A stretch of 64,000 nt of DNA from Owenia fusiformis (Eukaryota > Annelida > Polychaeta > Sabellida > Oweniidae): NCBI GenBank assembly GCA_903813345.2, contig CAIIXF020000058.1, forward strand, positions 62,001-126,000. Reading direction: 5' to 3'. The notes beneath the pieces are model-generated. The model did no database searches. It had not been told where the DNA came from and saw only the letters and a list, made by a program, of their open reading frames with translations. Made by a program: the position numbers and the translations under genes. This document shows, piece by piece, positions 15,040-63,918 of the stretch; positions within the stretch are counted from its first letter, which is position 1, and the number at the start of each line of letters is the position of its first letter.

Positions 15040-15080
15040 CTAAAGGGTGGAATAAAAACAGGAGGTAAGGCACAGAAGAC

Positions 15081-17666: not shown

Positions 17667-17933
17667 CTTCTACAAATAAGGTTCCAGTGGTATCTTTATC
17701 TGCTATCTTCACTGTATATTCAGCTTCTTCATCAAGTGTTGGATTCTTAACAGTTAAAGTGTGTGTCACTCCATCAACTGCTATTTGATATGTTTCATCA
17801 GGTTCTATTGGTTCGCCATTCTTAAACCAGGTGGCTATTTGATCAGGTTTAGACACCTCACATTGAAGACTAGTGGTTGCCTTCTCAGCTGTTGTTACAT
17901 CTTTGAGAGGCATGGTAAACTCAACGGGGAGCT
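17667..17933 (-). CDS. E26: Ig exon of the K-A-T family
   Basis: 89 codons opening E-L-P-V-E-F-T-M-P-L. B-strand Cys in S-L-Q-C-E-V-S-K, Trp in A-T-W-F-K-N-G, with A-E-K-A-T where E23 to E25 have K-E-K-A-T. Ends L-F-V-E-G. Confidence 0.93.
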
Positions 17934-18070
17934 CTATTGAGTAGAAAAGAAAAGGAACAATGAAAAGGGTTAAAAGGTAATGTATATGTTTTGGAAAGGG
18001 TTAGGTACAGTTTGGGAACATCAAGAGAGTTAAGAAGAGAGTAATGGGTATTAAGAGAAAGGAATAGTAC

Positions 18071-18337
18071 CTTCTACAACCAGTGTTCCTTTGGTATCCT
18101 TTTCTGCTATCTTCACTGTATATTCAGCCTCCTCATCAAGTGTTGGATTCTTAACAGTTAAAGTGTGTGTCACACCATCAACTGTCATTTGATATGTGTC
18201 ATTAGGTTCAATTGGCACTCCATTTTTGAACCATGTTGCTACTTGATCAGGTTTAGACACCTCACATTGAAGGCTTATTGTCGCCTTTTCCTTTGTTGTA
18301 ACATTTTCAAGTGGTTTTGTGAATTCAACAGGGAGTT
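18071..18337 (-). CDS. E25: Ig exon of the K-E-K-A-T family
   Basis: 89 codons opening E-L-P-V-E-F-T-K-P-L. B-strand Cys in S-L-Q-C-E-V-S-K, Trp in A-T-W-F-K-N-G, F strand E-E-A-E-Y-T-V-K-I. Ends L-V-V-E-G. Confidence 0.93.
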
Positions 18338-18446
18338 CTGAGGGAAAGATAAAGCAAGAATATAGTATTAAATATGCAAAGAGAAGGGGGAACATAATGC
18401 AAAGAAAATATCAGAGAAGTATAACATTAAAGTCAATATGCAATAC

Positions 18447-18713
18447 CTTCAACCATAAGTGTTCCCTTAGTGTCTTTATCAGATATTTTCACTGTATATT
18501 CAGCTTCTTCATCAAGTGTTGGGTTCTTAACAGTTAAAGTGTGTGTCACACCATCAACCATCATTTGATATGTGTCATCAGGTTCAATTGGCACTCCATT
18601 TTTGAACCATGTTGCTACTTGATCAGGTTTAGACACCTCACATTGAAGGCTTATTGTCGCCTTTTCCTTTGTTGTAACATTTTCAAGTGGTTTTGTGAAT
18701 TCAACAGGGAGTT
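18447..18713 (-). CDS. E24: Ig exon, 376-bp tandem duplicate of E25/E23
   Basis: 89 codons opening E-L-P-V-E-F-T-K-P-L. B-strand Cys in S-L-Q-C-E-V-S-K, Trp in A-T-W-F-K-N-G. The 5' half is almost identical to E25 and the 3' half to E23, placing a duplication junction inside the exon; both neighbours are exactly 376 bp away. Confidence 0.93.
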
Positions 18714-18822
18714 CTGAGGGAAAGATAAAGCAAGAATATAGTATTAAATATGCAAAGAGAAGGGGGAACATAATGCAAAGAAAATATCAGAGAAGTATAA
18801 CATTAAAGTCAATATGCAATAC

Positions 18823-19089
18823 CTTCAACCATAAGTGTTCCCTTAGTGTCTTTGTCTGCTATCTTCACTGTATATTCAGCTTCCTCATCAAGTGTTGGGT
18901 TCTTAACAGTTAAAGTGTGTGTCACACCATCAACTGTCATTTGATATGTGTCATCAGGTTCAATTGGCACTCCATTTTTGAACCATGTTGCTATTTGATT
19001 CGGTTTAGACACCTCACATTCAAGACTGACTGTGGCCTTTTCTTTTGTAGTCACACTAGTAAGTGGTTTTGTGAACTCAATTGGAATTT
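18823..19089 (-). CDS. E23: Ig exon of the K-E-K-A-T family
   Basis: 89 codons opening E-I-P-I-E-F-T-K-P-L. B-strand Cys in S-L-E-C-E-V-S-K, Trp in A-T-W-F-K-N-G, F strand D-E-E-A-E-Y-T-V-K-I. Its 3' part and the following intron are near-identical to those of E24. Confidence 0.93.
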
Positions 19090-19209
19090 CTGTTAAAAAG
19101 AGGAAATGTTGAATAAGAAAAAGTAAAGGTGAACAAGATTATTGGGGAAATAGCATTAGAGAGATGAGGAATTGTAAGATGTGTAAAGAATAAGCGTTAC
19201 AATATGTAC

Positions 19210-19476
19210 CTTCAACAACAAGTTTTCCTGTACAGGCTTTAGCTGCTAGTTTCACTGTATATTCTGCTTGGTCGTCAGGAGCTGCCTCCTTGACAATAAG
19301 TGAGTGTTTCACTCCTTCCACTTTGATTTCATGTGTTTCATCTGGTTTGATCTCCTCACCATTCTTGAACCAAGTGGCAATTTGGTCAGGCTTTGAGACT
19401 TCACATTCTAGAACCGTAGTTGCTTTCTCCTTGGTGACAACATCCTTGAGAGGGGTAGTGAACTCAACACCAACTT
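19210..19476 (-). CDS. E22: Ig I-set domain exon
   Basis: 89 codons opening E-V-G-V-E-F-T-T-P-L (the usual Pro replaced by Gly). B-strand Cys in V-L-E-C-E-V-S-K, Trp in A-T-W-F-K-N-G, F strand D-D-Q-A-E-Y-T-V-K-L. Shares V-T-K-E-K-A-T with E23 to E26, so it belongs to their duplication family. Confidence 0.93.
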
Positions 19477-19641
19477 CTATTATTGAAAAGAAAAGATAGG
19501 GTATTGTTATGGGCAAAGATGTAGCTTTATCAGGATAGGAGAGGAAATAGAATATGAAGATATAGTCTAAAACAAGCAAGCAAGCATGCATATTCTAGAG
19601 AGAAAGGATATATTAAGTAAAGGTGAAAAAGGAGAAAGTAC

Positions 19642-19908
19642 CTTCAACAAAGAGTGTAGCTTTGGACTTCCTATCCCCAATCTGAACAGTATATTCTGCC
19701 TCATCATCCAAGGTGCTATCTTTAATAGTTAACGTATGTTGCGTTCCCTCGATGGTGATCTCATATTTATCATCTGCTTGGATTTCTATACCATCTCTGA
19801 ACCACTTCGGTATTTGGTCAGGTTTGGACACCTCGCATACCATGCTGACAGTCTCATCTTCCAAGACGTCAGAGTCTTTCAGTGGGATGGTGAACTCAAC
19901 TGGTTTTT
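19642..19908 (-). CDS. E21: Ig I-set domain exon
   Basis: 89 codons opening E-K-P-V-E-F-T-I-P-L. B-strand Cys in S-M-V-C-E-V-S-K, Trp in P-K-W-F-R-D-G, F strand D-D-E-A-E-Y-T-V-Q-I. Ends L-F-V-E-G. Confidence 0.93.
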
Positions 19909-20149
19909 CTGATACAGAAATAAAGGATTAAGATGACAGAAAAGATAAGACAAAAGAAATTGGCTTGAAGAAAAACATTTAAAAAGGAGTTTGACAACTA
20001 GGAGAAACTACACAGGTAATCATTTTGTAATTCGTAGTATCTACATGTATATCCTGGTTTAGAGAAGTCTCAGATCAAGAATTTCAATATTATACATAGG
20101 AAAGAAATAAGCAACATACATAAAGAAGACAGTCTTAGTACAAACGAAC

Positions 20150-20416
20150 CTTCAACATGTAATTTAGCTGATGATTCTTCATCTTGAACCTTTAAAGTGT
20201 ACTCAGCCTCAGCATCAAATGATGCATCAGGGATAGTGAGTGTATGACTGACACCATCCATTGTTATCTTATAACCACTTGTATCATCAATAGGTTTACC
20301 ATCCTTCAGCCAGGTCACATGGGCATTAGCCTTGGTCAATTCACATCCAATAGTAACAGTTTCATTTTCCATGCATTTGGTTTCCTCTAGTGGTTTTGTT
20401 ATATGTACTGGTTCTT
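20150..20416 (-). CDS. E20: Ig I-set domain exon
   Basis: 89 codons opening E-E-P-V-H-I-T-K-P-L. B-strand Cys in T-I-G-C-E-L-T-K, Trp in V-T-W-L-K-D-G, F strand D-A-E-A-E-Y-T-L-K-V. Extra Cys in the A' strand (T-K-C-M-E), shared with E19. Confidence 0.93.
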
Positions 20417-20597
20417 CTATAAATCCATGCAAACAAACAGTAAAAGTGGATATACACACAAGAGAAGAAAGAGACAGAAAAGTAAATAAATACACAAAGA
20501 TTCAACAGCACAGTTACAATGAAAGGTAGTAGAGTTAGACAGAGTTACACAGTTAGAAAGATGGAAAAGTTCAAAGATTTAGAGACCCATATATTAC

Positions 20598-20864
20598 CTT
20601 CAATGATGAGAGTAGCAGTTGATAACTTTTCACCAAGTTTCACAGAATATACAGCAGCCTTTTCAAATGAGGCATCAGGGATAGTTAATGAATGTTTCAC
20701 TCCATCCACCTCAATCTTAAACTCATCGGCCTCTTCAATTGGTACTTCATCTTTCATCCATGTTACAGGAGCATTGGGTTTGGAAACTTCACACTCAAAT
20801 GTTACAGACTCATGCTCCATACATTTTGTTTCTTTCAGAGGAATGGTGAAGTCAATAGGCTCTT
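20598..20864 (-). CDS. E19: Ig I-set domain exon
   Basis: 89 codons opening E-E-P-I-D-F-T-I-P-L. B-strand Cys in T-F-E-C-E-V-S-K, Trp in V-T-W-M-K-D-E, F strand K-A-A-V-Y-S-V-K-L. It shares T-K-C-M-E and T-I-P-D-A-S-F with E20, so the two are sister duplicates. Confidence 0.93.
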
Positions 20865-21063
20865 CTGTGGGAGGACAGGGAAAACAGAAATAGGAAATGA
20901 GATTCACACATCAAAACACGAGGAAGAATTCAGGATATATAAAAAACAGAAGACATTTGACAAAGTAAAGGATAGCAAACACCCATCAAACATAAAGGCT
21001 GCCTTCAAAGCCATAATAGCCATAATATCATGGTAGCCACAAAGAGATTTGAGCTTTACTTAC

Positions 21064-21330
21064 CCTCAACTGTTAGTTTAGCTTTGGAGTTCTGGTCTTG
21101 GGCAACTATGGTGAAATCAGCAGTCATATCCAGTGTAGCATCTGGGATCCTCAGTGTGTGTGTTACACCTACCATCTCAATTTGATACTTGTCAGATTTC
21201 TCAATAGGTTTCCCTGCTTTGAGCCAGGTGACTGGACAATCTGGTTTGGAGAGCTTGCAGGTAAATGTATGGCTTGTGTGTTCCATGATGGTGGCATCTG
21301 TCAGTGGTTCCACAATGCGTACAGGTTCTT
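21064..21330 (-). CDS. E18: Ig exon, first of the 41-domain tandem block
   Basis: 89 codons opening E-E-P-V-R-I-V-E-P-L. B-strand Cys in T-F-T-C-K-L-S-K, Trp in V-T-W-L-K-A-G, F strand M-T-A-D-F-T-I-V-A, end L-T-V-E-G. Donor GTAAGT. Confidence 0.93.
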
Positions 21331-34441: not shown

Positions 34442-35258
34442 CTAGTGAGGAACACGCAGAGTTATTAGTTTCTAGATACCCACACAGATAAAACATTGTG
34501 ACCACACTACAGTAAAACCTGCTCTATTTTCAATGTGATGTCTATCAGAGATTTATTTGTCATCTTGTCTATATGGAAAAACCTTCCACTTATTAACATT
34601 GTTATTTTACATGAAAGACATATTAAGGTATACAGTATTTGGATTTCAGGTTTCACTATATATGAGTGTGATGTCACAATGGAATATCATAGGCAGTGTG
34701 AAATAGACTAGAGTGTACAAAGGCATGTAAGTGCATTATCTAAGAGATCATAGTAAAAGCTCTATATGCAGGGTATGTCATAAGAACTTCAGGCCTCTTG
34801 GTCAAAACATTTTATTTTACTATACACGTCCAGTCCAAAACTAACTTGGTCTGGAGGCCTCTTGGACTGTGCTTATGACACACCCTGTCTCTATGTCAAC
34901 TATGTATGATAAACATCATGATACAGAGCCTAATATTACGAGAATCCCTATATAGGTAGGAGAATACAAACAGGTGACATCATATATAATGATATGTTAA
35001 TCAATCTTACACTAAATTGTTAAGACAGAAAATATTGTACGTTAGTATTTAGTGATATACCAAATTGTGTCTGTGACATATAATAGTAGTTACTCTGTTT
35101 GCTTCATCTAAACACGCAAGATCACACAAAAACACATGAATAAAGTGTCCATTATATGTGTATACTGTACTGTACATTTCCTTTGTAAACTGGGTGCTGA
35201 GGACCTCCAGAAATAATGCAGACTTGTGTCTTATCAAGTGTCCATGCAGGATACTCAC
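34442..35258 (-). other. Intron between E11 and E12, with a hAT-like element
   Basis: 817 bp. Contains the TIR element 34769-34887 and a 14-bp match (34508-34521) to the end of the MITE at 53566. No exon seen. Confidence 0.6.
34769..34887. mobile_element. Short non-autonomous hAT-like element
   Basis: 119 bp bounded by CAGGGTATGTCATAAG and the inverted CTTATGACACACCCTG; the inner bases also pair (AGGCCTCTTGG near both ends). The flanks TCTATATG and TCTCTATG match at 7 of 8 positions, as expected for an 8-bp target duplication. CAGGG ends and 8-bp duplications are typical of hAT transposons; there is no transposase. Confidence 0.65.
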
Positions 35259-35528
35259 CATTGACAAAGAGTTGAGCAGAGGTATGATGATCCCCTGGTA
35301 GCTTCATAGTATATTTAGCTTTCTGATCAATCTGAGCATCGGGGAACTCAAGAATATAAGTATTTCCCTCCATTTTGAACACATAGCCCTCACTCTCATT
35401 CAGCTCCTTATCATCTTTCAACCATGTTACTGGTACATTGGCCTTTGAGAGCTGGCAGGAGAGCTGGGCACTGTCATGCACGTAGCAGTCAGTGTCAGTC
35501 AGAGGGCTCACAATCTCAACAGGCTCCT
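35259..35528 (-). CDS. E11: Ig I-set domain exon
   Basis: 90 codons opening E-E-P-V-E-I-V-S-P-L. B-strand Cys in Q-L-S-C-Q-L-S-K, Trp in V-T-W-L-K-D-D, F strand Q-K-A-K-Y-T-M-K-L without Cys and one extra residue (P-G-D-H-H) in the F-G turn. Ends L-F-V-N-G before GTGAGT. Last Ig before the linker block E12 to E17. Confidence 0.92.
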
Positions 35529-36428
35529 CTGTAAGTTAGTGGCAAATAGAAATGTTAAAGTTAATGAGATTGTTGTTGTTATAAAGCTAGCCTAGCCCCA
35601 AAGTTACAGGCCCAGTAAATGAAATATAGATGACGCAGTAGAGGATTAAGCAGATGGCTTAGCAGACGGCCTAGCAAACGACTTAGCAGACGGCTAAGTA
35701 GATAGCATCAAAAGACTGCTTCATCTCTTTGTATATTTAATGGGAGAGGTACTTTTTTATTCCAAGAGAGTGTAGCAAAAGGGCTAAGCTTACTAGTATA
35801 TAGTCAATGTTAGAGTCAGTAAAATATACACCAGTTATATACAGAAGATATAGTATTAACACTAGATAGCTTTAGATTTCAGATATATCTCAGTTAGACA
35901 GTTAATTTCATTATTGAAGCAAGGAATCTTGTATTTTAGAATCAGAGGATTTAGATACGTTACTGTTTGTTGTTATAAGCACACTTCTAGAATATAAGGG
36001 GATGAAATATAGAATTAGAGAGATTAACACTAAATATCAATTAAATATAGTATTATTGTATAATGTTAATGTTTGAGGAGCAAAAAGTGAGTATTCCAAA
36101 GGCTGCATTCACTCAAGTATTCACTCACTGCTACCCTTCTATAGGTAGATACTTCAGTGCTCTCTCGTATTACAATCATACACATCAAGTTTTCATGGTG
36201 ATACTCTCCATACACACATTCTCTTTTCACACAGTACATCATCACAATTTCTGATGGCCATATTGAAGTCCATATATGAAATATGTATGCAATGTCATAT
36301 GCAAGGGATGAGTTATACCAACAAGGAATGAGATTGAAACAGATTGGCATACAACAGTGTATTCATTCATTGTGTGTTCGCAAAGATTCCTACATGACCA
36401 CCAGGAAGATATGTTTATATTGACTTAC
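35529..36428 (-). other. Intron between E10 and E11
   Basis: 900 bp. Holds the 12-bp minisatellite at 35649-35708; no exon seen. Confidence 0.6.
35649..35708. repeat. 12-bp minisatellite, five units
   Basis: Five consecutive 12-mers of the form AGCAGACGGCTT with one to four differences each, inside the intron between E10 and E11. Confidence 0.75.
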
Positions 36429-36520
36429 CTTCCACCCAAAGCATAGCAACTGATGACTTGTCAGCTACCTTAAATGTATACTCTGCCTCATCATCTAAGT
36501 TTGAGTCACGGACAATCAAC
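36429..36520 (-). CDS. E10: 3' half of the split Ig domain
   Basis: 92 bp, too short to show up as a free reading frame. It opens with the G that completes Arg (H-R-L-I-V-R-D-S-N) and continues L-D-D-E-A-E-Y-T-F-K-V to L-W-V-E-G before GTAAGT. The joint H-R-L-I-V restores the conserved G-x-x-H-x-L-I-V strand E. Acceptor TTTGTAG. The separating intron (36521-36826) is 306 bp. Confidence 0.88.
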
Positions 36521-36826
36521 CTACAAATTAGTTCATATTTATGTGAGCAAATTAATTTGAATGTCCATGTAAAGATGTCACAATCGCATAACTAATAAAC
36601 TTCAGAAATTCAATAGCTCATATTCAATCATACTCACTACAAACTATGAAAAGAATCAGGACTAGAGTTACATATCAAATTATCCAACAATATTTTTGGT
36701 GCATTGATTTTTGACTTTTTTCAAAGAAGGACAGTATTAAGCCAATACACTGCCCTAGATGTCATAAAATAATATCAGTTATGGTTCCAGAAACATGAAC
36801 GTCTTTGTTCAGTCTTGCACACTTAC

Positions 36827-37001
36827 CTGTGCACACAGCCAATAGAGATCATCTCATATTTAGAGCTAGCAGCAAGAGGCTTGCCATCACAATACCATGT
36901 GACATCACAGTTCTCCTTGGACACTTCACACTCAAATGAAACTGTCTCATTCTCTGTGCACTCCTTCTCTTGGAGTGGTTTTACTATCTCAACTGGTATG
37001 G
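36827..37001 (-). CDS. E9: 5' half of a split Ig domain
   Basis: 175 bp, phase 1 acceptor (A-I-P-V-E-I-V-K-P-L), ending after the AG of an Arg codon, so phase 2. Carries the B-strand Cys (F-E-C-E-V-S-K) and Trp in V-T-W-Y-C-D-G. The donor is CACAG|GTAAGTG. Together with E10 it gives exactly 267 bp, the standard Ig module. This is the only Ig domain in the window interrupted by an intron. Confidence 0.88.
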
Positions 37002-39697: not shown

Positions 39698-42600
39698 TTA
39701 TAAGTCTATACGCCATATCTTTTTCCCATCAACAAGAGTGCTCTCCCCTGCCAAAGACCCTTCTGAACTTATAACAGAACTTCTAGACAATGGTCTTTCA
39801 ACTCTAGATACAACAGAACTAGATTGTATTACATTTTTTCTCATGGAAGAGTATGATGAGGTACTAGTTGAGACATGATCAGATCCTATCATCTGACCAC
39901 TTGCCATGTGTCTGCCAAAATCCCCAGGTCCTCGCAACTGGTAATCCATTTCTATTGGCCTTTCACTTGTGTATTCACTATGATGTTGTTCCTCTCTAAC
40001 ATAACCTGATGTGTGAGCCCCTGTGTCTGGATCAACTGATTGAAATTTTTGGAGAGACACTGAGGATCTTGGCTTAAAGCCCCCTACACTAGCACTTTGC
40101 CCTCCATCAATAACATCAACTGTTACATTGGACCTTTCAACGTCTCTTGGAAATGTGGCAAGATTGATTACAGGTGGGGGTGTATCAATACTTGAATCTT
40201 GATCAGTTGTGGTGTTTACCTTATGTACAGTAAATGCACTACCTGAACTACTAGATGATACATGAGCTTCATTATTTCTAATACTAGACTGACTAATTGA
40301 ATCTCTTCCTAACTGAGATACTGGGAGAGCAGGTTCCTGATTATCTTGGGACCCTCTACTAGATAAAGTGTCTGTTTCAATTCTATGAATTGTAAAAGTT
40401 GGTTGGACCCCTTGTTCCAGAGCTGTTGTCTGGACAGGTATTTCATGAGTATTTGAGGTGGTACTTGTAAAATGTGATTTTGTTTCTTTAATTGTAAATG
40501 TTGGATCATGAAAGCTTGTTTCATTTCTGAGATTCACTTGTATTGGTATCTCTTGTTGGGAATGTTCACCATGAACAATAGTGGTATAGGCGCTCTCATG
40601 AACAGTATTATCATCAGTGGGGTTACCTTCACGTTTTATATTTAAAACTATAGGGACTTCATAACCTGGTGAACTATGTGTCTCAGTATGTGTTGATTGA
40701 GTAGAATGATTTATTACATGAGATTCATTTCTAATGTTAACTACGGGGACCTCATAGCCAGTTGGCTCTGTAACCGTGTTCTGAAACTGGTGTGTCATTT
40801 GGACATGAGGGGATACCCTAGCTACATTCATATCAGCACTTCTAACAGGCACAACAGTGTCCCAACTAGTATTTTGAATAGTGAACTTAGGCTCTGTGGA
40901 TTTAGTCTCAGTTTGAAGATTAATCTGTATTGGTATTTCTTGACTTTGAACACCTGAAATATGCTCTGATCTTTGAGTTGTGTAAGAAGGGATTTCATAA
41001 TCTCCTGAATCTATTCGACCATGTTTTTGCCCAGTGAGAGTGACAGAAGGAGACACCATTGGTACATTCCCCTGGAAAGGGGTTTCATATTCTGAACTAT
41101 CTTCCCTGTGTGTTACCCTCTGAACATTAAAAGATGGACTCTGACTTATTCTAACTACATTGGGCGATTCTCTACCTTTGTTTTCTCTTACATTTGTTCT
41201 ATCTAATGATTCATAATCATCCTGAGTATTGAATTTTTCAAAGTTGATTGAAATAGTTTTAGGGGCAGTTTGAGTGGCATAAACATGTGTTTGATCATTT
41301 TGAGTATTTGTCTGTTGAACTACTGATGAATTGTAAGATGATTTACTCACATGTTCTGAATATGAATGCATATCAGTTGAAACCTGATCTTGAGATATAA
41401 CATCTATATATTGTGTCTGTCCACCAGGAACTGTTTCAGTGGTTACACTAACAACTTTAGCTTTAGACACTTGACCTGTAGGCACAGGGGAAAGTGAACT
41501 ACCAGGGTTTATTGTCACTTGGGTAGCATGTAGGGAAGATGATGAACTAGGCCTTGAATCAGATCTTGGTTTATGGAGGGAAGAGTATGTGCTAGACACA
41601 GAGTCGTGCCTATCAGTGATGAAATGATCAATAGTGGTATAGTCTGTCGAAACTCTATTAACCGATTTAGTATATGATTCACTGTTCTTATAATCATGAT
41701 CAATTCTATTGGTGGTTATTTCATGTACATCATCATAATCATTCCCAGATGCTCTGTTGGAAGCATATGATCTCCTATTCCGTTGTGTATTTTTAGTACC
41801 AAATGAAATCTCATTGACATCATCATAATCAGAACCTGATGCCCTGTATGAATCAGATGGGGTTCTTGTTTGTTGTCTGCGGATTTCCCGCAATGGCATG
41901 GGGGATTTTGCTCGTATTTCTTTCTGCTGTTTTTCATCAGTTGGAAATTCTAAAATGTAGCATTTTGGTGCAGTCATCTGTTCAGTCACTTCAACATTAT
42001 CATGGTCAATATGCAGGACAGTTGCCATTTGGTTGTCTTGCTTTCGCTGAATACCAACAGTATCAGACTCTCCCTTATATGGATTGGATAAATCTACTGT
42101 GATAACAGCCTTTTCAGAGTGAACAGATGATGGTCTGCTTTGTGAGGTATCCAACGACACATTTCCCATTACAGTAACATTAGGTTCTTGTATGACACCT
42201 TCTTCAAATACATCAATCTGTCGTGACTCAAGTGAGGTTACTGACTTTGTGGTATAAACTGCAATTATTTGTGGCTCAGACGGCTCATCAGGAATAACTT
42301 GTAAATATTCCTCTTCAGTCAATGTTGTATAGTCTTCCTCTTCATTTCTATAAACTTCTCTTTGTTGCTTATCTTCATTGTTGAGGATCAAATTAAGCTC
42401 AGATGTCTCAACAATTGCCGTTGTATCTTCTGCTTCATACTCTTTATCTACTATTTCTCCTTTGTTTTTCAAAATAAGATCTAGTTGCCTCTCACGTGCT
42501 TGAGCAAGAGTATCATATTCAGTTATTTTTTCATATTCAGTTATATATCTATCTTCAACTATTCCATAGTCAGTTGTATCACGTCTGACTTTTGTAGTTT

Positions 42601-45600
42601 GTTGCTCATAAGATTCATCTTTCACCATGTCTTGTACCTCTGTTTGGGTTGGAATAATTGCCCTTGTTGGCTGTAGATTTGTAGATATGGCAACATTTCT
42701 TTGGTCAAACCCAGTTTGCATCTGAATAGTTCTCTGCTTAATATGTGTTTGTGTTTCCCTAGTATCACCACTAGATTGTGCTGTTTGGGTATCAATCTCA
42801 CTCTGTTCCACATTTGTTTGTGTCTGTTCAGTGGAAGTAACAGCATGGTCTTCACCTGTTCTGACAGTTCTCATCAGTGGTTGAATTGTTTGTGTTCCAA
42901 ATGAATATGCCTCCAAAGGCTCACATTGTGTGTCACTTGTATGCTGGGTTGTTACTGGTGTCTGAGTAAAGTATTCATAACTTTCTGCAATAGCTTCAAC
43001 ACCTATTGATGATTGGCTAACAGCTGTCTGAGTTTGGGCCTCATCAAAATATGTCATCTCTTCATGGACCTCAAATCTAGGATAGTTTTCGAATTCAACT
43101 TGAGGGGCTTGAGTAGGGACAATGACTTCTTGTATGATTTCTGGTTCAGGATCAGTTTCGGTGCCCATTTCCCTTGAATTAAAAATAATTTGGGTGCCAA
43201 CATCATACAAGTCAACATACGTTTGACTGACCACCTCAGATGTTGTAGCGATACTATCTCCAGTACCTGTTGTTGATTGTGGAATTGAAGTTTGAGTTGA
43301 GGTAACAGCCTGACTTACATCTGTTGTAGTGTGTTGCTCCTTGGTTTCACTTATCATCTGGGATCCAATGGAATATTGTTCAATATAAGTCTGAGTTTGT
43401 ACAACTCCTCTATGGACTGGCTCCATTTGCGATCCAGTGGTAGTCAGATCAATACTGGTCTGAGTCTCAGTTGTAAATGCCTCTGGAATTTCAGGAACAA
43501 CATACACACCTTTAGAAGCTTGTTCCGTGGTTGGTGTCTGAGTAACTACATCTTCACCAATAAATTTAACTGGTGATGAGCCACGATCAGTAGTTACTGG
43601 TTCAAACTGTATACCAACAGTTCCCTGGTCAACTGATGTCTGTGTTCCGCATACAAATGTCTCCCATTCATATTGTGTATTTGATGTACTTTGATATATA
43701 ACTGGTGTTTGTGTTTGTGAAATACCCTGCTCAACTTGATCAGTTGAGGTATATGCTTCATAACTCTCAGGGTATATTTGAGCACCAAATGAAGTTTGCT
43801 CAATAAAAGTTTGTGTGACTTCTGTCTGGACTGGTACGGGTTCAGGAATTGCCTCACATGCTACAGAGTCTTGCTCAATGAATGTCTGAGTTTGGACAAC
43901 CCCTGTATCAATTGGTATAGGAGAGGCAGCCATTTCCCTGTATCCTATTGCCATCTGAGTTCCAGTTGTAGATTGTTCAATGAAAGTTTGACTCTGAGCA
44001 ATGGACATTTCAGCAATGTCGCTCTGCATTTCAGTTGATCTTAGTTCCACTATTGTCGTCTGTGTAGTGTTTTTTGCATATTCAACAGTATCAGTAGCTA
44101 CACCACATTCCTTAACATCAGATTCATACTGGATTCCAGAGGATGTAACATCGACTGCAGTTGTCTGTGTTTCTATGACTGAAGTATCTGTGAGGTCAGT
44201 AACCATTCCAGTTGATTCAACTTTAACGTAATTTGTCTGAGTTTGGATTTCTTCAACATCTTGTGGTATAGGTGACATTCCTCTGCTTTCTGTAACCTGG
44301 GACATTTGTATACCTATAGTGCCCTGTTCAATAACTGTTTGACTTACTCCATGTTGCAGTTCAACATTTTCAGACTGGGTCTCTGAAGAGGCCAATTCAA
44401 CAGTTGCAGTCTGTGTAGAACCCCTAGAGAATTCAAGCATGATTGTAGACATTTCTTGGTCTACAAGCTCTGCAGTATTCTGAACAGAAGAGTCCCTCTG
44501 GTCTACGCTTGTCTGGGAAAAGGCAACTGCAGATTCTGGGACATGATCAACACCGACTGATGAGTATTCTTTAATTTCAGTTTGTGTGTCACATTCATAT
44601 ACATCCAATGGGATAGGAGAGACACTTCTTTCCGTCACTGACTCAACAGCTTGAACACTAGAATTGGACTGATCTAGAAATGTTTGAGTCATTCCAGGTA
44701 ATGTTTCTGTAACATCAGATTGAGATTCACTATTGCTAAGCTGAACAATTGGAGTTTGTGTTGCTGATAGTGCAACCTCTGTTATTTCAGTCTCAGTAGT
44801 TTGATGAAACTGTCCAGGTGCCTCCTGGATACCACATGACACTTTTCGAACAGTTGGTGTCTGTGACGCGCCTACCAACATATCTGGATATGTATTACCA
44901 ACTCCGACTGACTGTTGGTCAGTGCTTGTTTGTGTGCTCCCTTCTTCAACATATAATGGTAGAGGTGAAGCACCACGATCAAACATCATTTCAACAGCTT
45001 GGGTAGATGTCTCGTCGTATTCTTTGATAAGTGTTTGACTATGGCTGACTTTCATTTCCAATGCTTCATATTGTGTCTCTGAATTAAACTGAGCCACAGA
45101 GGGTGTTTGTGTAGACATAGGGCCAAAGTCAGGTTGGATTGTACCTGTTCCCATATCATAACTCTCAGGATACATTTGAGCACCAAAGGACGTTTGCTCA
45201 ATAAATGTTTGTGTGTTAGCAGCATAAACATCTATTGGTTCGGGACTGGCGTCAACACCAACAGAATGACACTCAACATATGTTTGTGTTACTGTATCAC
45301 TGGAGACAACAGGTATTGGAGATGATGCTCTTTGTTCAGTCTCAGTGACCATCTGAGACGCAACTGAGGATTGATCTACAACTGTCTGTGTTGTACCTAG
45401 TTTTGTTTCTGTTATCTCAGATTGTGTCTCAGTAGTTGTCTGCTCTAGCACTGGTGTCTGGGTAGATGATTTGCTGTATTCTACATATACTGTTGATGTT
45501 TCCTGGTCATTTAGATCAGGGGATTCTTGAACACCATATGAAGCTTGAGCAACTATTGGAGTCTGAGACTGCCCAATAATAGTGTCTGGTGGTTGATTTC

Positions 45601-48600
45601 CAACTCCAATTGACTGCTGCTCTATCAATGTTTGAGTTTCAATGCTTCCACTCTCAATTGGTACTGGTGAGGCAGATCTGTCTTGATATAGAACTGGATC
45701 CATTTGGGTCACAGAATCATCAAATTCCTTGATAACAGTCTGCGTATGACCAGCAGATGTTTCCACTCCTTCATATTGAGTTTCAGATGTGTTTTGTACC
45801 ACAACAGGAGTCTGGGTTGATGAGAGGAGACATTCAACTGTCTCAGTTGACGTCATCTGATCTGCACTTACTGGGGTCTCCTGGACACCAAATGAAGCAT
45901 GTTGGACAATGGTAGTCTGGGAATGGCTGACCATGGTTTCTGGGGGAGATATTCCAACTCCTATTGATTCTTGCTCGATAGTTGTTTGTGTCATACAGTC
46001 CCATAAGTCAGGTTCTACAGGAGATACACCTCTGTCTGTCATCATCTCAACAGCCTGGGTAAAACTAGAGTCATATTCCACGATACGGGTTTGACTTTGT
46101 CCAACTTTCAATTCCATGGCTTCATACTGGGTCTCTGAATTGAAATGAGCGACTGAAGGTGTTTGAGTTGCTAATGGGGCTTGTTCAGGTTGAATGGTTG
46201 TGGTTGACCGATCAATGCTTTCTGGGTACATTTGAGCACCAAAAGATGACTGTTGTATAAATGTTTGAGTATTTCCAACAGACATTTCTGGAACGTCAGG
46301 GATGATTTCAACACCAATTGAATTCTGTTCAATGAAAGTCTGAGTCTGAATTTCATTTCCTTCTACTAATATTGGGGAAGTGGACCTATGATCAGTTTCA
46401 CTTTGCATTTGAATACCTTTTGATTTTTGATCAACTGAAGTTTGAGTAGTGCCAAAATTAGTTTCAGTTACATCTGATTGTGTTTCACTTGTACTTTGTT
46501 CTAATATTGGGGTCTGAGTGGAACTCTTACTTAATTCTACTGACTCAGTCGAGGTCTCTTGACTAAAGCTCTCTGGAGTTTCTTGGACACCTGTTGAAGC
46601 TAATTCAATGATATGAGTTTGAGAATGAGCCATGATAGTGTCAGGAGGTTGAATACCTACTCCTACAGACTGCTGCTCTACACTTAATGTCTGAGTTGTT
46701 ATAGTACCTAACTCTACCTGCATTGGGGAAGCTGACCTATCTTCATATATCATTGGTTCCATTTGAGTATAAGACTCATCATATTCTGCTGTGAACGTTT
46801 GGGTATGACCTATACTTTGTTCTAATGCTTCATACTGAGATTCTGAGGACGTGTGTAACACAGATGTAGTTTGAGTTGTGGTTACATTCTGTTCAATGGC
46901 AGTTGTTGATGTACTAATTTCAGAACTTTCTGGTTCTATCTGGGAACCAAATGAAGATTTGCCTACTTCAGTGGTCTGAGTCATACTAACACTTGTTTCA
47001 GCAATCTTGGGATAGACTTCAACACCTTTTGAGGCTTGTTCAATGATTAAAGTTTGAGTGACCGATTCAGACACTTCACTAGCTACAGGCGAGGTTGACC
47101 TTGTTTCAGTATCTGTATCTTTCTGAACACCAAAACTTGACCGATTTACAGATGTCTGAGTATATGTTACATTTGTATCTTTACTATCAGATTGAGTCTG
47201 AGACGTGCTTCTTTCTATTTGTATAGTTTGTGTAGCGATCTGGCTGCCATCAACATAATCAGTGTATGTTTCCTGATCAGTGGTATAACCATTTTCATAC
47301 TGAACACCCAATGATGACTGAGACACATTCACAGTTTGTGAAAAGCTAGCATAAGAATCAGGACATACACCTACACTTTTAGACTCTTGGTTGATTTCTG
47401 TCTGGACAGCCAGCTCACTCACATCTACATATTTAGGTGGTGGGGCATGCTGAATAAATTCCTGCTCAATTGAAACTATTTCTGGTTCATATACCTCAGA
47501 CTGGGTTTCTGAATCATTTTGAACTATATGAGGTGTCTGAGTAGAAGACACTCCCAGATTAACAGTAGGCATTGAGGTACCACAATCATATCTTTCATTT
47601 TCAATTAAAGTATGAATACCAACCGACGACTGATTGACCCTAGTTTGAGTTTGAGATGTATTCTGAGCAGGATACATGAAGACACCAACCCCTTGAGACT
47701 GTAAGGCTTTAGGAGATGTTTGGGTTGCAATTTCATTTCCAATGACTGATGATGAGATGGGAACAATTTCACTAACAACCTCAGTGACAAACTCATTTAT
47801 AACATGGTATTTCCTTCTCTCTGGGATACTGACAGACTTAGCTGTTGTAAACTTTTTAGGTAACTTACAAACCTTGGGAACTTCAAAAATCAGCTCTGAC
47901 TTTTTGTGACTTTCGAGTTTTTCTTCCTCAGTAAAAGTATTATGCGTTTCATGAATTATCAAAACCTCTTCTTTCCTACGTTTTCTTTCAATCTCTAGAT
48001 CAGTTTTAGTCAATCCTGGTTTGGGTACAGTGAATACAATTTCATGTGGCTCACGTACGCCTTCTAAATTTTTATAGATTGCTGAAGTGAAGCTTTGTTG
48101 TGAGTCAAGATCAGTAACACTGACACTGTCTATTTGATCTGAACTATAGTCACTCTCCACATCTGATATATTACGCTTCACTGGGGAGCGGTTGATTTCC
48201 ACTTCTACATGATATTTTACATTGCCATCCATTAGTTCATCAGAGCTACTCAGAGAGTCTTGGTTTAGGGAAGTAGTACCACCAATAGGTATTGTTTCAG
48301 CATTGTCTATATCCAGATAAAGTTCAACTGTATGATCCCCTTCAACTTGGATAGTCCTAGTGTCAGAGCTCTGAAGCGTGCTGCTTGTATCAATAGTCCT
48401 AGTACTGGATGTAGTGTGGGTTGTTGTTGTGGTATACTGGGAGCGGGATTCTTCGTCGATAGTGTCCATCACACCTTCAACAGCATATGACAGGAAGGCT
48501 TCTCTAGAGGGGTGAACAGGAGAAGTTGGCAAAGCATTCGGGTCAATGGAAGTCTGAATTAATTCATGACTGGTTAAAGATTCGGGGGACAAATCCTCAG

Positions 48601-49317
48601 ATTCTTCAACATAGTGTGTGAATTCAGAAGGTAAACCACTGACGGTTGTTTGTTCATGGCTGGTGGTACTATACGTAGTCTCCACATATTCCATACAGTG
48701 TTTTGTGGCTGTTGTTGTACTAGAACTACTTGTGATCCTAGTAGCGTTTGAGTCTGTCACTGAATCTCCCTGTGACAGAATCTGTGAAATTACATCTGAT
48801 AGTTTATCTTGATTATGATTAGAAGAATCATCCATAGAGGATTCAGATGCAGTGTAGTGCCGAGAGTGCACTGATTCTGAAAATTCAGATGAGTCATCAT
48901 AAAACACCTCACCACTTCCTGTGCTTGTAAATACACCACTTATGTTTGTGCTACCACTCGTAAATTCGTCAGTGGTATATTGGGAAGACTCTGACGCCTG
49001 AAATGGAGCTCCTGTAAAATCAAGGCTCCTGATATCTGATGTTGTCCTAAGTTCACTAGGTGCACTAGATGACCTTGACCCATTGGGTGGAATATTTCGA
49101 AATGCCATATCAGAGTCAAGGTCTGTATCCAATGGTCGAAAGTTACAATTCAAATCAGTACTGTTGAAATTGTGATTATAATCCTGGTTGATCGAGTTAG
49201 TAATATTGTCATTCAAACAATTTTTAAACAATAGTTTATCTGTGGTGTCGTAATCAGTGTCTCTAGATTCCTGTGTTGGTGGCCCTGGGCAATCCTCTGC
49301 TTGGTAACTTGTCGATT
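39698..49317 (-). CDS. E8: giant TQT-repeat exon with its own stop (Novex-3-like alternative C terminus)
   Basis: A 9,620-bp open exon: acceptor TTTTTCTCAG, phase 1 (E-S-T-S-Y-Q-A-E), then 3,206 further codons to a TAA at 39698-39700. Residues ~1-525 are Ser/Thr/Asp-rich and disordered. Residues ~525-2225 (about 47735-42640) are the TQT array: about 47 T-Q-T tripeptides plus S-Q-T, T-Q-[SYMA] and G-[VIA]-Q variants at roughly 12-residue spacing. Eleven R-x-x-S-P motifs recur through the array. Residues ~2225-3206 are a different disordered tail with repeats (S-D-Y-D-D-V; Y-E-[IV]-P; E-I-P-I-Q; P-T-F-T-I), ending K-K-I-W-R-I-D-L. There is no Ig domain or Cys-rich fold. Its acceptor matches the neighbours' phase, so inclusion gives a truncated protein, as the vertebrate titin Novex-3 exon does. 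A weak phase-1 donor (C|GTATAG, exon edge 39712) could alternatively allow read-on splicing. TQT is the core of LC8 dynein light chain binding sites, so a multivalent LC8 scaffold is proposed. Confidence 0.85.
42640..47735 (-). repeat. TQT-motif array inside E8 (candidate LC8-docking array)
   Basis: I counted about 47 TQT codon triplets here; one more lies outside near 41265. Between them sit T-Q-S-[DE], T-Q-Y-E, T-Q-M, T-Q-A and S-x-G-[VAI]-Q, so that glutamines recur every 11-12 residues over long runs. Typical linkers are x-F-I-E-Q-x-S and P-[IV]-[VL]-x-Q. The larger unit, defined by recurrence of D-R-[SG]-[AVS]-S-P, is roughly 120-150 residues and repeats about 11 times. TQT is written with several codon combinations (ACT or ACA or ACC, then CAA or CAG), which is not what a drifting DNA satellite would give. 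Confidence 0.85.
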
Positions 49318-58798: not shown

Positions 58799-59024
58799 CT
58801 TTTTCATGTAATTGATGAAATGTTGTATGATGTAATTTTGAATGAATAAATTGAATTGAATTGAATTGAAATCTCTAAAGGCAAACCAAATGAATAATGC
58901 ATAAAGAAAGGGTTGGATACTATAGTAACGGTTATTAATCAGAAAACAAATGATTGATCATTTTTAGTTAGGCACAACAAGCAAAACAAAATGACTAATC
59001 CCTACAAAATGTTAGTCTACTCAC

Positions 59025-59297
59025 CCTCTACTATAAGAGTAGCTGTTGTCTCATCTTCCCCAATTGTGGCCTTCACTTTACCACTGTCCCCTAGGACTGT
59101 GTTAGTAATAACCATGCGATGGAGGAAAGATTTCCCATCAGAGTAGATCTGATAGCGACCTCTGGATTTCACCTCAGTGCCATCTATGAACCAGTGTACC
59201 CTGGGTACAACCTTTGTGACCTCACAGACCAGTTCAGCATCTTGGGTCTCCATGACAGTGACATCACTGAGGCCCATACTAAATCTAAGGGGCAGCT
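59025..59297 (-). CDS. E6: Ig I-set domain exon
   Basis: 91 codons, the longest single-Ig module here, opening E-L-P-L-R-F-S-M-G-L. B-strand Cys in E-L-V-C-E-V-T-K, core Trp in V-H-W-F-I-D-G, F strand D-S-G-K-V-K-A-T-I without Cys, end L-I-V-E-G before GTGAGT. Last exon before the 6.6 kb retrotransposon-bearing intron. Confidence 0.9.
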
Positions 59298-60134
59298 CTA
59301 AAGGGAAACATGCAGACATGAGAATACATAGCCATGCAGGGTGGGAGCTCATGCAGTACAGTATAATCAAATAGTATTTTTATGTGAAATAAATTGTTAC
59401 AATGTACATCTACAATAAATTATATACTCGTAGGTGACTTTACTTATGTTTCTTGCATTCTATATAATTCTAACTAATGTTTAATTTTTGAATCAATATA
59501 AAAAATAATTAAATATTAATTGAATATATCTACTTTGTTAATTGAGTTATACCTCCACCACACATTAAATTACATTTTTATACCTTCACCACAAATTAGT
59601 ATACATATTTACTACACCCTCCAAAATATAGTGCACATAATGTTACACCACCACAAAACTACTCACCATTTCAAATTACACCCCACAATAAACCTTACCT
59701 ATTGCAATGCTCTTATCATAACTTAGTTAACTAACTTAAAACAACTTGAATAGTTCACTAAACATCCAGACATACAAAATACATGTAAAAGAACCTATCT
59801 ATCAGCTACTACCATGTCAGTAAATAAATTTGTCATCCAAGAAATGAACCGAATTCCAATGTTCAAGGGGATTCAACTTCCACTATAATATCTTCTTAGT
59901 AAAGTTTAGTATCTGTGCATTGTTTGTTAGACATCCTTTATTTTTTATGTGTGACTAAAGTATGTTAAATATATAGGTTCCATTGAATATTCTATGTGTG
60001 TTAAATATGAAAGTATCAGAATAAACTACATGTAGGTGTGCTAATTGTATGTGAGTGTGAGTGTATTATTTTGTACAACATATATTTTCTTCCACCAAGA
60101 CACCCTAGTCCTATATATCCATCAGTGTGTTTAC
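59298..60134 (-). other. Intron between E5 and E6
   Basis: 837 bp of AT-rich sequence. A stretch near 59550-59690 repeats a loose motif of Ac-cac-ca and tac-acc type; I see no exon, structural RNA or transposon ends. Confidence 0.6.
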
Positions 60135-60398
60135 CTCCTACATATAGAACAGCAGTTGTAACACAATCTCCAACCTTTGCAGCAACATCTCCTTCATCAT
60201 CTCTATTGACATTGTTTATGGTTAAACTATGGCTTAAACCCTTCATGTCTATTTCATACTTGGAGCCTTGTGTCACTTCAACTTCACTGACAAACCATTG
60301 CACATTAGCTGGCTTAGAGACCTCGCATGTAAAGCTAGCAGTAGTATTTTCAGCGACGCTTTGGTCTTCAAGTGTTCTCGTGAACTCAACTGGTTGAG
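60135..60398 (-). CDS. E5: Ig I-set domain exon
   Basis: 88 codons opening A-Q-P-V-E-F-T-R-T-L. B-strand Cys in S-F-T-C-E-V-S-K, core Trp in V-Q-W-F-V-S-E, F strand D-E-G-D-V-A-A-K-V, end L-Y-V-G-G before GTAAAC. One codon shorter than the standard module. Confidence 0.9.
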
Positions 60399-60626
60399 CT
60401 ATTAAAGATGAGTATGGGTTATAGTATAGATTGCATCTATATTAATTACACATTTTGATTAGGCTATATCTAGTGTTAAATTTACATTTCCTAATATGGT
60501 GTTATTTTTTGAACGAACCATCATAAAGCATATTGTCAGGAACTACAGTGTATTTACATTGAAAGGAAGCATAATGTATAAACCGGTCGCATTGATGAAT
60601 TATTTGATGGTAATTTAAAAATCTAC

Positions 60627-60893
60627 CTTTCACATAAAGATAAGCAGTGGATTCAAATTGGCTGACTCTAGCGGTAACTTGGGCTGAATCCCCAATGAGC
60701 ACATCATGTATTACCAACATATGTGTCACTCCATCCTCATAGATTGAATATTTCTGGGACTCTTTAACCTGTTCTCCCTTCACAAACCAATCAACTTCCA
60801 CATCTTCCACCGATGTCTCACATGTGAATTTTGCATTTTTATGTTCCATAACATTTTGATCCGTTAAGCGTTTGGTAAAGTTGACTGGAATAT
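60627..60893 (-). CDS. E4: Ig I-set domain exon
   Basis: 89 codons opening D-I-P-V-N-F-T-K-R-L. B-strand Cys in K-F-T-C-E-T-S, core Trp in V-D-W-F-V-K-G, F strand D-S-A-Q-V-T-A-R-V without Cys, end L-Y-V-K-G. Same upstream Ig subgroup as E1, E2, E5 and E6. Confidence 0.9.
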
Positions 60894-61472
60894 CTACATA
60901 GTGTAAGCAAAGCAAGAACATCCAATTAGATTTAATTTTAAGTTAAAGAAGAGCAATATTTAGTCATATTTAGTGTACCAAATGGATATTAAACTATTTT
61001 AAGCTAAAGCCAAGTCAGTCCTACAAAATAAATGGTGATATGTGTGTATTGTACAGTAAATTGTGTTTCTTCCAAAAATCTTTACAATTTTAAAATCTTT
61101 ACAATAATTTATTGTTGCAATCTGCATCCTGTGTATTATACCATGCATAATATTAATTAGGGAACTGACACCATATTTTATTAACCATAAACCAAATAGA
61201 CTACAAACTGACCGTGCTCTCCTTGATTCCAATAACATAACTTCAAATCATAATTATACCAGAATACCACTGCCAATCACCATAGTTAAAGTATTGTTTG
61301 AATTTAATGTGACAGAAGAAAATGGTGAAATGTGTTTGCGTGGATTGAATAATATAGGACAAATGGGTGAGTTTAGATGAATGTGACTCTGGGTGCTATA
61401 GAAGGTGTATTATTCTGCATGACTGCATGTGTTAATGTACATTCTGTAAGTGCCCCATCCTGCCTATTGTAC
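60894..61472 (-). other. Intron between E3 and E4
   Basis: 579 bp, AT-rich. I found no Ig-like frame or paired splice sites of matching phase. Confidence 0.6.
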
Positions 61473-61994
61473 CTTCAATAATTTTGGTATCAAGTTCTGT
61501 TGTGTCTATTATTTCAACATCTCTGGTCTGTTGAAAAGACTCCTCCATTCTAAATTCCTGATGTGATTGTTTCTCATCAATATTGCTGTTTAAATGCTTC
61601 ATTTTTGTACCTCTAGGTTTCTCGTTATCATCGACTACCTCGTTGATCCCTTGGTGAAGGGGTTCAATATAATTTGATTCCAAAATCAAGTTGGTGGTGG
61701 TTATCATTGAGGTGAAGTTAAGTTCACTGGAGTGTTCCTTCTGAACTTGAAATGCAAATGTAGAGTTGGTTGATTTATTCACAATTTGCTCACCAATAGG
61801 CTGGATGTTGTTGGCCTGTTTAACAGTGAGTCTCTCATGAAAATCAATCATATCCTCGGATATCTGTTCATTTGTGTGGTGGATGTCATAATCAAAGGAA
61901 TCAAGGTTATCTTGTGTTGAGGTAGCACTGTTTGTATTAAGGGTTGCTTGGAATTGATATTCAGTTACTTCCTGCCCATGTTGGCCTGCTGCAG
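61473..61994 (-). CDS. E3: disordered acidic linker exon
   Basis: 174 codons, phase 1 to 1, opening A-A-A-G-Q-H-G-Q-E-V and closing T-K-I-I-E-G before GTACAA. Rich in Asn, Gln, Glu, Ser and Thr, without Cys or an Ig core. I recognise no domain; it is presumably an unstructured spacer between Ig domains. The single open frame, good splice signals and matching phase support it as coding. Confidence 0.75.
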
Positions 61995-62383
61995 CTACAG
62001 AAGTTAACAAAGTGCCGTCTTTAGATTAACAAAGGTTTTGGGCTACTTGGGTAATTGGGAAGGAATTACTTTCGAAAAACAATGTTTGGATTTTCATCAC
62101 AACTTGTTTTTAAGTACATGAATTAATATTTTGTGAGATGAACAAATTATGTCGACTTGATCCCTACACTAAGACAACATTTAAACTAATCTATCTACAG
62201 ATGTGAAATCTAAAAGAGAATTCTACAAGTTTCTAAACTACAAGCATGTGACAAAGCTTGGACAAGTTCGGATGCAGAAGCATTTATTCCCATAATCTTT
62301 AAAACTAGAAAATCTACGAATGTACAGAATTATTTACAGCTTAAAGTATAAAACATTACGAGATTTCCTATATGGAGTCCTAC

Positions 62384-63322
62384 CTTCTACATATAAATAT
62401 GCAGTTGAGGTTTGGTTTCCACATTTGGCTGTTACTTCCCCAGAATCATCAGCAGTAATGTCTTTGATAATCAATGTATGAATAGTGTCTTCAACTTGAA
62501 TTTCATACTTTTTACTTGTCTCTATTTCTATGCCACTGATATACCATTCAACATCTGTATCAGGCTCCATGGTCTCACATGTGAAGTAAGCATCAGAGCC
62601 CTCAGACAGAGTTAGGTTTTCAAGCAGTGTTCTAAATGCTGATGTCTCCTTTTGTGTTGCAAGTCCTAGCTCAACTATTAGTTCATCCATATTATCTAGT
62701 TCATCTTTGGGAGTTAGAAGAGTGACATCATGAATAGCTTTGTCTATTATCTCTTTGGACATTGTATCAGCTTGTTGATGAATGAAAGTCTCATTGTCTC
62801 GCTGCATTAGGATGCTAGTGACAACATCCCGCAAATTCTCATCACGCCCTCTAATAATAACATCCAGTTCTGATCTCTTATCAGAGTCAGCCAATTCTCT
62901 GTTTTCAGCTGATTTTGTACTCTGACTATACTCTATGTCATATTCAGTTATATGTTGACTCCTGGTTGTAATAGTTTCAGTTGTAGCAGTTAGGATGGAC
63001 TGACTAGATTCTGATTCTGATGACTTGTACTGATTAGCACCTGTAGTGTTTGATACAGTGTTCTCCCTATCATCTGTACTGGATAAGAAACCGGTAATAA
63101 CACTTCTCAGTGTTTCCTGGTCATCATCTACACTGCCCTCTATAGTTTCAAACTCTAAATCTTCTCCTTCAATGACAGTAACAGTTCTTTCTGTTACTTC
63201 ACTGGTATGTTCAGTTTGAATATTGTCCATAATTTCACTGTTATACTGGCTTATCTGTTCAACTGTTTGGAAATGTTCATTAGTCTCTATATCTTCATCT
63301 TCTTCGAACTGCATAGGAATTG
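62384..63322 (-). CDS. E2: acidic disordered segment fused to an Ig domain
   Basis: 313 codons in one exon. The first ~220 residues are Asp/Glu/Ser/Thr-rich with no predicted fold and carry repeated T-E-T-I-T-T and D-N-E-T style stretches. The last ~90 form an Ig domain (L-L-E-N-L-T-L-S-E-G, B-strand F-T-C-E, Trp in V-E-W-Y-I-S-G, F strand D-S-G-E-V-T-A-K-C) ending L-Y-V-E-G. The acceptor is CCTCTAG followed by the codons for A-I-P-M. This is the only exon in the window that joins a long linker to an Ig domain. Confidence 0.85.
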
Positions 63323-63651
63323 CTAGAGGGGCAAAAAATAAGCAATTTCTTAAAGCAACTCCTTGTAAAGATCAAAATTTGACAAACATGAAATTTTGAC
63401 TTGTGCTCTTTTAAGTTTCTAAGAAGGAAAAAACAATGTTATTAAGATTAATTAATAGTGATCTTTTCTGAATGATCAGTATTTACAAAGTAGTTCCCAA
63501 GTGATAAACAGTAACTTAAGACAGAATGGATAATTGAAAACTACAAGCTTTCAATAATCACTATATGAACTAAAGGAATAGGGAATAACTGAATGTGATA
63601 TAGGAGTTGACAGTTTAAAGTCACTTATTTTACTTTCTATAGGTAGCATAC

Positions 63652-63918
63652 CTTTAATAAAAAGAGCAGCAGTAGATATGTATTTGCCACATCTTGCTGT
63701 GATGACACCCGAGTCTTCAGGTATAGTATTGTAAATGTTTAGGGTATGAGTGAATCTGTCTTTAGTAATCTCATATTTCTGATCAGGCATGATCTCTACT
63801 CTCCCAATGTACCATCTAACAGAGGTATTGAGTTTGGAAACTTGGCAGGAAAAGGTAGCTGTGCTATTTTCTATGATAGTGGTATCCTTAAGCTCTACAG
63901 TGAAATGATCTTCTTTGG
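63652..63918 (-). CDS. E1: Ig I-set domain exon
   Basis: 89 codons, phase 1 to 1, opening A-K-E-D-H-F-T-V-E-L. The B strand has Cys (T-F-S-C-Q-V-S-K) and the core Trp is in V-R-W-Y-I-G. The F strand reads D-S-G-V-I-T-A-R-C-G rather than the D-D-E-A-E-Y-T form of the downstream array, marking this as part of an upstream Ig subgroup (E1 to E6). Ends in L-F-I-K-G before a GTATGC donor. Only about 80 bp of intron lie beyond it at the window edge. Confidence 0.88.

Follow-up and report, generated by a model that had tools for sequence, protein, structure and literature searches.

The proteins of the titin/obscurin family carry tandem I-set immunoglobulin (Ig) domains and a PEVK-like segment, and nebulin is made of modules of about 35 residues with SDxxYK, not TQT. 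In known clients of the dimeric hub LC8 (DYNLL), for which T-Q-T is a known anchor (PMC12057147, PMC3078936), one LC8 dimer holds two chains and weak sites are aided by their neighbors (PMC5963919, PMC10046861). In the zinc-finger transcription factor ASCIZ/ATMIN, many TQT anchors are irregularly spaced along a disordered region, and one weak site that is not a TQT lies 11 residues from a neighbor (PMC5963919). Human ASCIZ has 11 LC8 sites, described in 2018 as the most of any partner, and the Drosophila protein has 7, with QT2 and QT3 spaced most closely (11 residues) and the other sites further apart (PMC5963919). The yeast nucleoporin Nup159 has five sites and is reported to form rigid stacks of five LC8 dimers (PMC5963919, PMC10046861). 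Here we describe an array of TQT tripeptides in a titin/obscurin-type gene of the annelid Owenia fusiformis, found in a stretch of 64,000 nucleotides (GenBank assembly GCA_903813345.2, contig CAIIXF020000058.1, positions 62,001 to 126,000), called the window and numbered from its first letter. Like ASCIZ, the array combines predicted disorder and many TQT anchors with candidate weak non-TQT sites 11 residues from their neighbors, and it is comparable to Nup159 in its several candidate sites. Unlike ASCIZ, it has 47 TQT, as candidate sites, on a nearly fixed lattice within an Ig-repeat protein. As the best single explanation, to which we give somewhat better than even chances, the array would be a docking strip that binds LC8 at several sites. 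If LC8 does bind, this would be a new variant of the multivalent LC8 clients.

The array lies in a minus-strand open reading frame (ORF) of 3,221 open codons (39698-49363), and its features are collected in Table 1. A preliminary description of this DNA had noted about 47 TQT in some 1,700 residues, and exactly 47 are counted there out of 48 in the whole ORF. In 2,000 shuffles of the same 1,700 residues, TQT occurs on average 4.4 times (standard deviation 2.1) and never more than 11 times. There is no TQT in the 542 residues that precede the array, and one in the 962 that follow it. The TQT count is far above the 11 sites of human ASCIZ (PMC5963919), in line with the earlier claim about known LC8 partners. 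The distances between TQTs alone cluster near 24, 35, and 58 residues. The TQTs sit in a tandem repeat of about 117 residues, a feature that the earlier description missed. Self-comparison of the protein peaks at offsets of 352, 234, and 117 residues, the strongest (352) corresponding to three units, and the array has several nested periods, and Gln has periods near 5.8 and 2.9. Nebulin likewise nests short motif repeats in a longer super-repeat.

Each unit consists of ten lattice points with a pitch of about 11.7 residues. Unit statistics refer to the eleven complete units, U2 to U12, and to neither the partial U1 nor the degraded units past U12. From points 1 to 10 the majority patterns, to which exceptions occur, are TQT; S-x-G-V; [ST]QT; G-[VAIS]-Q; T-x-T; TQT; S-E-T-Q; [ST]QT; Q-[MA]; and R-x-x-S-P. 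Eight of the nine measured intervals are 11 or 12 residues long in all eleven units, and three of these are exactly 12 in every unit. The ninth spans 22-26 residues, or two pitches, across point 2. The central Gln said to recur about every 11-12 residues is borne out in part, points 2, 5, and 10 lacking a regular Gln. At the seven Gln points, Gln is kept in all 77 unit-by-point cells. Point 4 reads G-[VIAS]-Q in 10/11 units, and point 9 reads G-[VIT]-Q in 5/11. At point 10, one unit has TSPI, another TSPV, and the others xSP[IVLM], with the S and P kept in all eleven units and the preceding R in ten. The TQTs and this R-x-x-S-P-[IVLM] are conserved to about the same degree. The latter is possibly a proline-directed phosphorylation site or a Pak1-like LC8 site. 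Other conserved positions are a Ser at alignment column 12 (11/11), perhaps position -4 of lattice point 2, and a Glu at column 83 (10/11). The residues after the lattice centers are frequently I or V at +3/+4 and E at +5. The original observation is confirmed, and the array is more ordered than first described.

The units have diverged, sharing on average 32-43% of their residues, depending on the offset. Where aligned units have the same residue in a fourfold codon, the third base agrees in 490 of 1,189 cases (0.41), chance agreement over the five residues ranging from 0.32 (V) to 0.45 (P). A tandem repeat finder reports no DNA repeat inside the array, and ungapped DNA comparison finds short families, mostly 60-75% alike, with a spacing near 351. 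Since silent sites are close to random, recent copying does not account for the invariant residues. Seventeen columns are invariant in 11/11 units, and 16 of them lie within one residue of a lattice center, a zone holding 26 of the 113 columns (P = 7e-12). With a looser cut of 10/11 units, 16 of 21 columns do so (P = 6e-9). This test is partly circular, because the centers were placed on conserved Gln. A period test independent of the centers finds a best period of 11.8 residues, with p = 0.0005 for columns and p = 0.0045 after the triads are collapsed to clusters. In all these statistics the units are related copies within one sequence, hence not independent samples. Because all but one of the invariant columns lie on or beside the centers while silent sites are near-random, both the triads and their spacing appear to be selected. 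The array could also be a neutral by-product of recent tandem duplication, given the several nested periods of its tandem repeat and the recent duplications elsewhere in the gene. However, a neutral origin is already contradicted by the Glns kept at every Gln point amid diverged units with near-random silent sites, and we give it hardly any credence.

The array is probably disordered, as judged from predictions. AlphaFold2, run on two units (241 residues, 6 aligned sequences), returns no secondary structure, with a predicted local distance difference test (pLDDT) score of 28.8 and a predicted template modeling (pTM) score of 0.10. An Ig domain of the same gene, run as a control with 6 sequences, reaches 95.5 and 0.84, respectively. 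The sequences aligned for the array were all repeats from this one protein, and a missing model is not proof. By charge-hydropathy the array lies barely within the disordered range, and the single Ig tested lies outside it. A folded alternative is suggested by the 12-residue rungs with T-x-T and by the Gln periods near 5.8 and 2.9: the rungs could stack their Gln and Thr into a beta-solenoid, comparable to that of the TxT antifreeze proteins. Against the equal-depth Ig control, though, AlphaFold2 predicts no stacked strands over the 241 residues, leaving the solenoid unsupported and extremely improbable. The lack of a predicted fold also fits an elastic PEVK-like spacer, an entropic spring in which the repeat sets only length and composition, and the same gene does contain a PEVK-like ORF and Ig tandems. 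A spring needs composition only, however, and not 17 invariant columns at a period of 11.8 with near-random silent sites, which makes a pure spacer improbable.

The fit of the anchors to LC8 was scored with a home-made matrix of 31 binders and 29 non-binders taken from PMC6607443, PMC5963919, PMC3078936, and PMC12057147. The binders come from PMC6607443 Table 1 (11 clear, with a duplicate left out, and 4 weak) and Table 2 (7/7), together with six of the seven Drosophila ASCIZ peptides (the weak TMT being left out), the phage consensus, Bmf, and gephyrin. The non-binders are 19 of the 31 rows of Table 1 and 10 of the 12 rows of Table 2 in PMC6607443. The rows left out had no clear Q anchor, were too short, or were one duplicate and one shifted peptide. 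Myosin Va, Pak1, and GRINL1 lie outside the matrix. The leave-one-out area under the curve is 0.80 for the full matrix and 0.71 for the flank discriminant. Several results agree with LC8 docking. When the background is the composition of the array, the true phase of 12 has the highest flank-only score, just 0.2 bits ahead of phase +2, and none of the 119 alternative orders of the five flank positions scores as well as the true one. For the lattice as a whole, the LC8 flank fit peaks at the right phase, narrowly and under one of two backgrounds. The G-x-Q of points 4 and 9 is like the G-I-Q class of published sites, and point 10 is similar to the Pak1 site RDVATSPI. Point 2, which reads IGVG in 2/11 units, resembles the GRINL1 site ETREIGVG in a register two residues off the lattice (PMC3078936). 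The Pak1 and GRINL1 cases are likenesses and not tests. Points 4, 7, 5, and 10, where the TQT is imperfect, have better flanks than points 1, 3, 6, and 8. This could be compensation, good flanks going with weak anchors, a pattern noticed post hoc, and the full score stays poor at points 9 (0.5) and 10 (-6.3).

Many other results weigh against LC8 docking. The 47 TQT sites have a median full score of 9.4 bits, compared with 13.4 for binders and 8.3 for anchor-bearing non-binders; 15 of them exceed the binders' lower quartile, and 4 exceed the binders' median. The preliminary description had called for such a scoring of the sites. Its outcome is that 15/47 TQT sites pass the flank discriminant, as do 22/31 binders and 9/29 non-binders, and that the flanks of the TQT sites are no better than random array residues (z of 0.69 for the flank score and -0.18 for the binder/non-binder discriminant). 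By these scores, the TQT flanks resemble those of published TQT non-binders, and most sites, taken one by one, would be weak or silent. Small residues at -3 and hydrophobic ones at -4 and +2 are frequent in the array and are described as unfavorable (PMC6607443). With a UniProt background, phase +2 beats phase 0 on flanks alone (-0.88 vs. -1.69). Points 3 and 8 have LC8 flanks worse than the array average (-7.6 and -8.3 vs. -4.2), and position +1 of points 4, 7, and 9 is occupied by E, Y, S, M, A, and others, of which the charged ones are described as highly unfavorable (PMC6607443). Many published TQT peptides, some from mucins included, failed to bind LC8 (PMC6607443). LC8 does not explain the conserved Arg of R-x-x-S-P, the Glu at column 83, or the common Glu at +5. 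Finally, no orthologue was found when the array and the 3' part of the exon served as queries in protein searches: these return only the protein itself, one of them having scored only the 7,969 candidates that share most words.

Part of this evidence points to other readers of the grid. The strip may be a strictly periodic dock for some other adaptor or for a sarcomeric filament, its grid matching the repeat of that partner as nebulin modules match actin. The spacing is as conserved as the residues, with three intervals exactly 12 in all units, and the R-x-x-S-P, which is no hallmark of LC8, is about as invariant as the Glns; the un-LC8-like flanks of the TQT sites point the same way. On the other hand, T-Q-T is the known LC8 anchor, and the LC8 flank preference does peak at the right phase with the array background. 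No further animal module is known to us to recognize T-Q-T, though no search aimed at one was made. A different partner is possible but rather unlikely. Kinases could also be the readers, [ST]Q being the site of ATM/ATR-type kinases and S-P that of proline-directed ones. An SQ/TQ cluster is defined by dense [ST]Q with no demand on the residue after Gln. The array has 92 [ST]Q in its 1,700 residues, dense enough for such a cluster, and a conserved R-x-x-S-P. Yet the residue after the Gln is far from free, being T in 61 of the 92 where composition predicts 14, and phosphorylation leaves the exact spacing unexplained, so that a phosphorylation strip is very improbable.

We thus return to LC8 docking. 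What stands of the multivalent scaffold first proposed is the predicted disorder, the many anchors, a pitch that fits LC8 cores side by side, and anchors kept between diverged repeats. In this model, a disordered multivalent strip for the dimeric hub would lie inside a giant titin/obscurin-type protein. An ancestral segment of about 12 residues with a TQT-type anchor would have grown, probably to about 58 and then about 117 residues, before forming the tandem array. Each LC8 dimer would hold two parallel chains at matching anchors, so that two molecules of the protein are zipped in register. Binding would be nucleated at the two anchors per unit that score best, points 1 and 6. Avidity would account for any occupancy of their neighbors at a distance of 11-12 residues (TQT/SQT with poor flanks, G-[VIA]-Q, S-E-T-Q, and S-P), as with the weak TMT site of Drosophila ASCIZ. 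LC8 as the partner, dimerization, and a role in muscle are, like this growth history, inferences. The spacing of 11-12 residues (22-26 across point 2) exceeds one 8-residue LC8 core, so neighbors could be co-occupied. The pitch is also equal to the closest one in Drosophila ASCIZ, between QT2 and QT3 (PMC5963919). Between such cores, linkers of 3-4 residues remain at a pitch of 11-12, and of about 16, 27, and 50 residues for the TQT-only spacings. Published linkers of 6 and 9 residues give uniform LC8 complexes, and those of 3, 30, and 41 residues give mixed ones (PMC5963919, PMC10046861). Since the array linkers match neither 6 nor 9, mixed occupancy is expected and not a perfect rod.

A continuous LC8 ladder along the array is unlikely. 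The stiff ladder of tens of LC8 dimers originally envisaged finds no support, given the gap between the TQT and binder medians and the frequency of unfavorable flanks. In a more far-reaching reading, LC8 dimers at about 140 lattice points would almost abut one another along a pair of parallel giant chains, giving an LC8-zipped molecular ruler, a stiff sarcomeric rod of hundreds of nanometers. The 11.7-residue pitch would be near 4 nm if extended, about the diameter of the LC8 density reported in PMC5963919. An extended 117-residue unit would measure about 39-40 nm, a length that may match some filament period, and the points lacking Gln would serve as Pak1/GRINL1-type sites of low affinity. 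We regard such a ruler as improbable.

The gene around the array is of the titin/obscurin type, as judged from its domains, which do not decide between the two. A profile home-made from six of the window's own Igs gives 53 rows, or 48 Ig matches after duplicates and fragments are merged, all on the minus strand: 5 upstream of the giant exon, 2 nearby downstream, and 41 further on. The run of Igs extends to either end of the window. Pfam I-set is present in all three Ig ORFs scanned. The Pfam scan, which covered 10 ORFs, shows no kinase, Fn3, or RhoGEF domain in them. In the PDB, the two-Ig ORF 13118-13909 best matches titin, then myosin-binding protein C, with obscurin lower. A protein search with an Ig pair returns the protein itself and two short proteins. 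The initial label of a muscle protein is reasonable, based on the 48 Ig matches around the exon, one pair of which best matches titin. Among the literature matches listed, no TQT/LC8 array is reported in the titin/obscurin family. In the open-licence literature, a search pairing LC8 with titin finds neither term in any title or abstract; dynein light chain is in no title or abstract among the matches listed for dynein light chain with titin or obscurin, and none of the titles listed on LC8 with titin, obscurin, sarcomere, or muscle reports such an array. Together these results are weak evidence of absence.

That the array lies in one exon, as first described, is predicted from the open frame and its splice-like borders. 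The acceptor-like site is TTTTTCTCAG|AATCG at 49318/49317, and the donor-like site, C|GTATAG at 39712/39711, is weak. An AATAAA lies at 39273, about 440 bases downstream of this donor, so an alternative terminal exon with poly(A) is possible. GTATA donors are found at 5/6 Ig exon ends (collected by pattern). These donors and an exon length divisible by 3 favor an internal exon without settling the matter. The exon has no Pfam match at E = 0.01 and no meaningful match in a PDB sequence search.

Other observations concern the surroundings of the exon. On the plus strand, ORF 55523-58684 (1,053 residues) has endonuclease/phosphatase-type and reverse transcriptase domains (Pfam), and is probably a retrotransposon lacking long terminal repeats (non-LTR) within the intron that precedes the giant exon. 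The downstream Ig matched in two pieces looks as if it were split by an intron. Opposite the PEVK-like ORF, on the other strand, lie the long ORFs 24006-24962 and 24963-27284, which seem to arise from its composition as by-products. Tandem duplications cover Ig exons at 15991-17009 (period 486 bp, 94% match) and 18068-19080 (376 bp, 93%), so the gene seems to be still growing by exon duplication.

Table 1. Features of the array and its gene, in window coordinates.
Feature	Position	Strand	Basis and remarks
Predicted giant exon, 9,606 nucleotides	39712..49317	-	Inside ORF 39698-49363; splice-like sites; starts in phase 1, length divisible by 3
TQT array, 47 TQT and 67 [TSVI]QT in 1,700 residues	42641..47725	-	Counts in the ORF translation
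Partial first unit, U1	47441..47722	-	Protein residues 548-641; profile match 43.0 bits
Eleven complete units of about 117 residues, U2-U12	43541..47404	-	Profile matches and alignment; 115-121 residues from point 1 to next point 1
Degraded 3' end of array	42629..43540	-	Profile matches of 8.6-25.5 bits, reaching only about residue 2160; beyond, TQT without recognizable unit
Run of consecutive anchors	42704..42832	-	Gln at protein positions 2182, 2193, 2205 (TQT) and 2216 (MQT), 11-12 apart; at 3' end of array
Five upstream Ig domains	59023..63904 (59023, 60133, 60625, 62382, 63650)	-	Profile search; Pfam I-set for the two scanned, ORFs 60016-60441 and 62334-63371
Two downstream Ig domains	35257..36996	-	Profile search; one matched in two pieces, 36427-36522 and 36814-36996
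Three further long ORFs, 234/531/448 residues	29613..33806	-	Between Ig groups; no recognized domains, no Pfam match
PEVK-like ORF, 1,585 residues	22703..27460	-	Rich in Glu/Thr/Pro/Val, 24-nucleotide (8-residue) repeat; no Pfam match; label judged from composition
Tandem Ig region, 41 Ig domains	164..21325	-	Profile search

Even without LC8, a 12-residue grid over about 1,290 residues with no predicted fold needs a periodic partner, and finding that partner would be informative. Should LC8 bind as few as one third of the TQTs, the number of sites would exceed the 11 of human ASCIZ, and the LC8 hub would become a structural part of the sarcomere. With sites that nature has set at almost regular intervals, the array would then lend itself to work on the rescue of weak motifs by avidity, and would make it testable whether LC8 holds giant muscle filaments in pairs.

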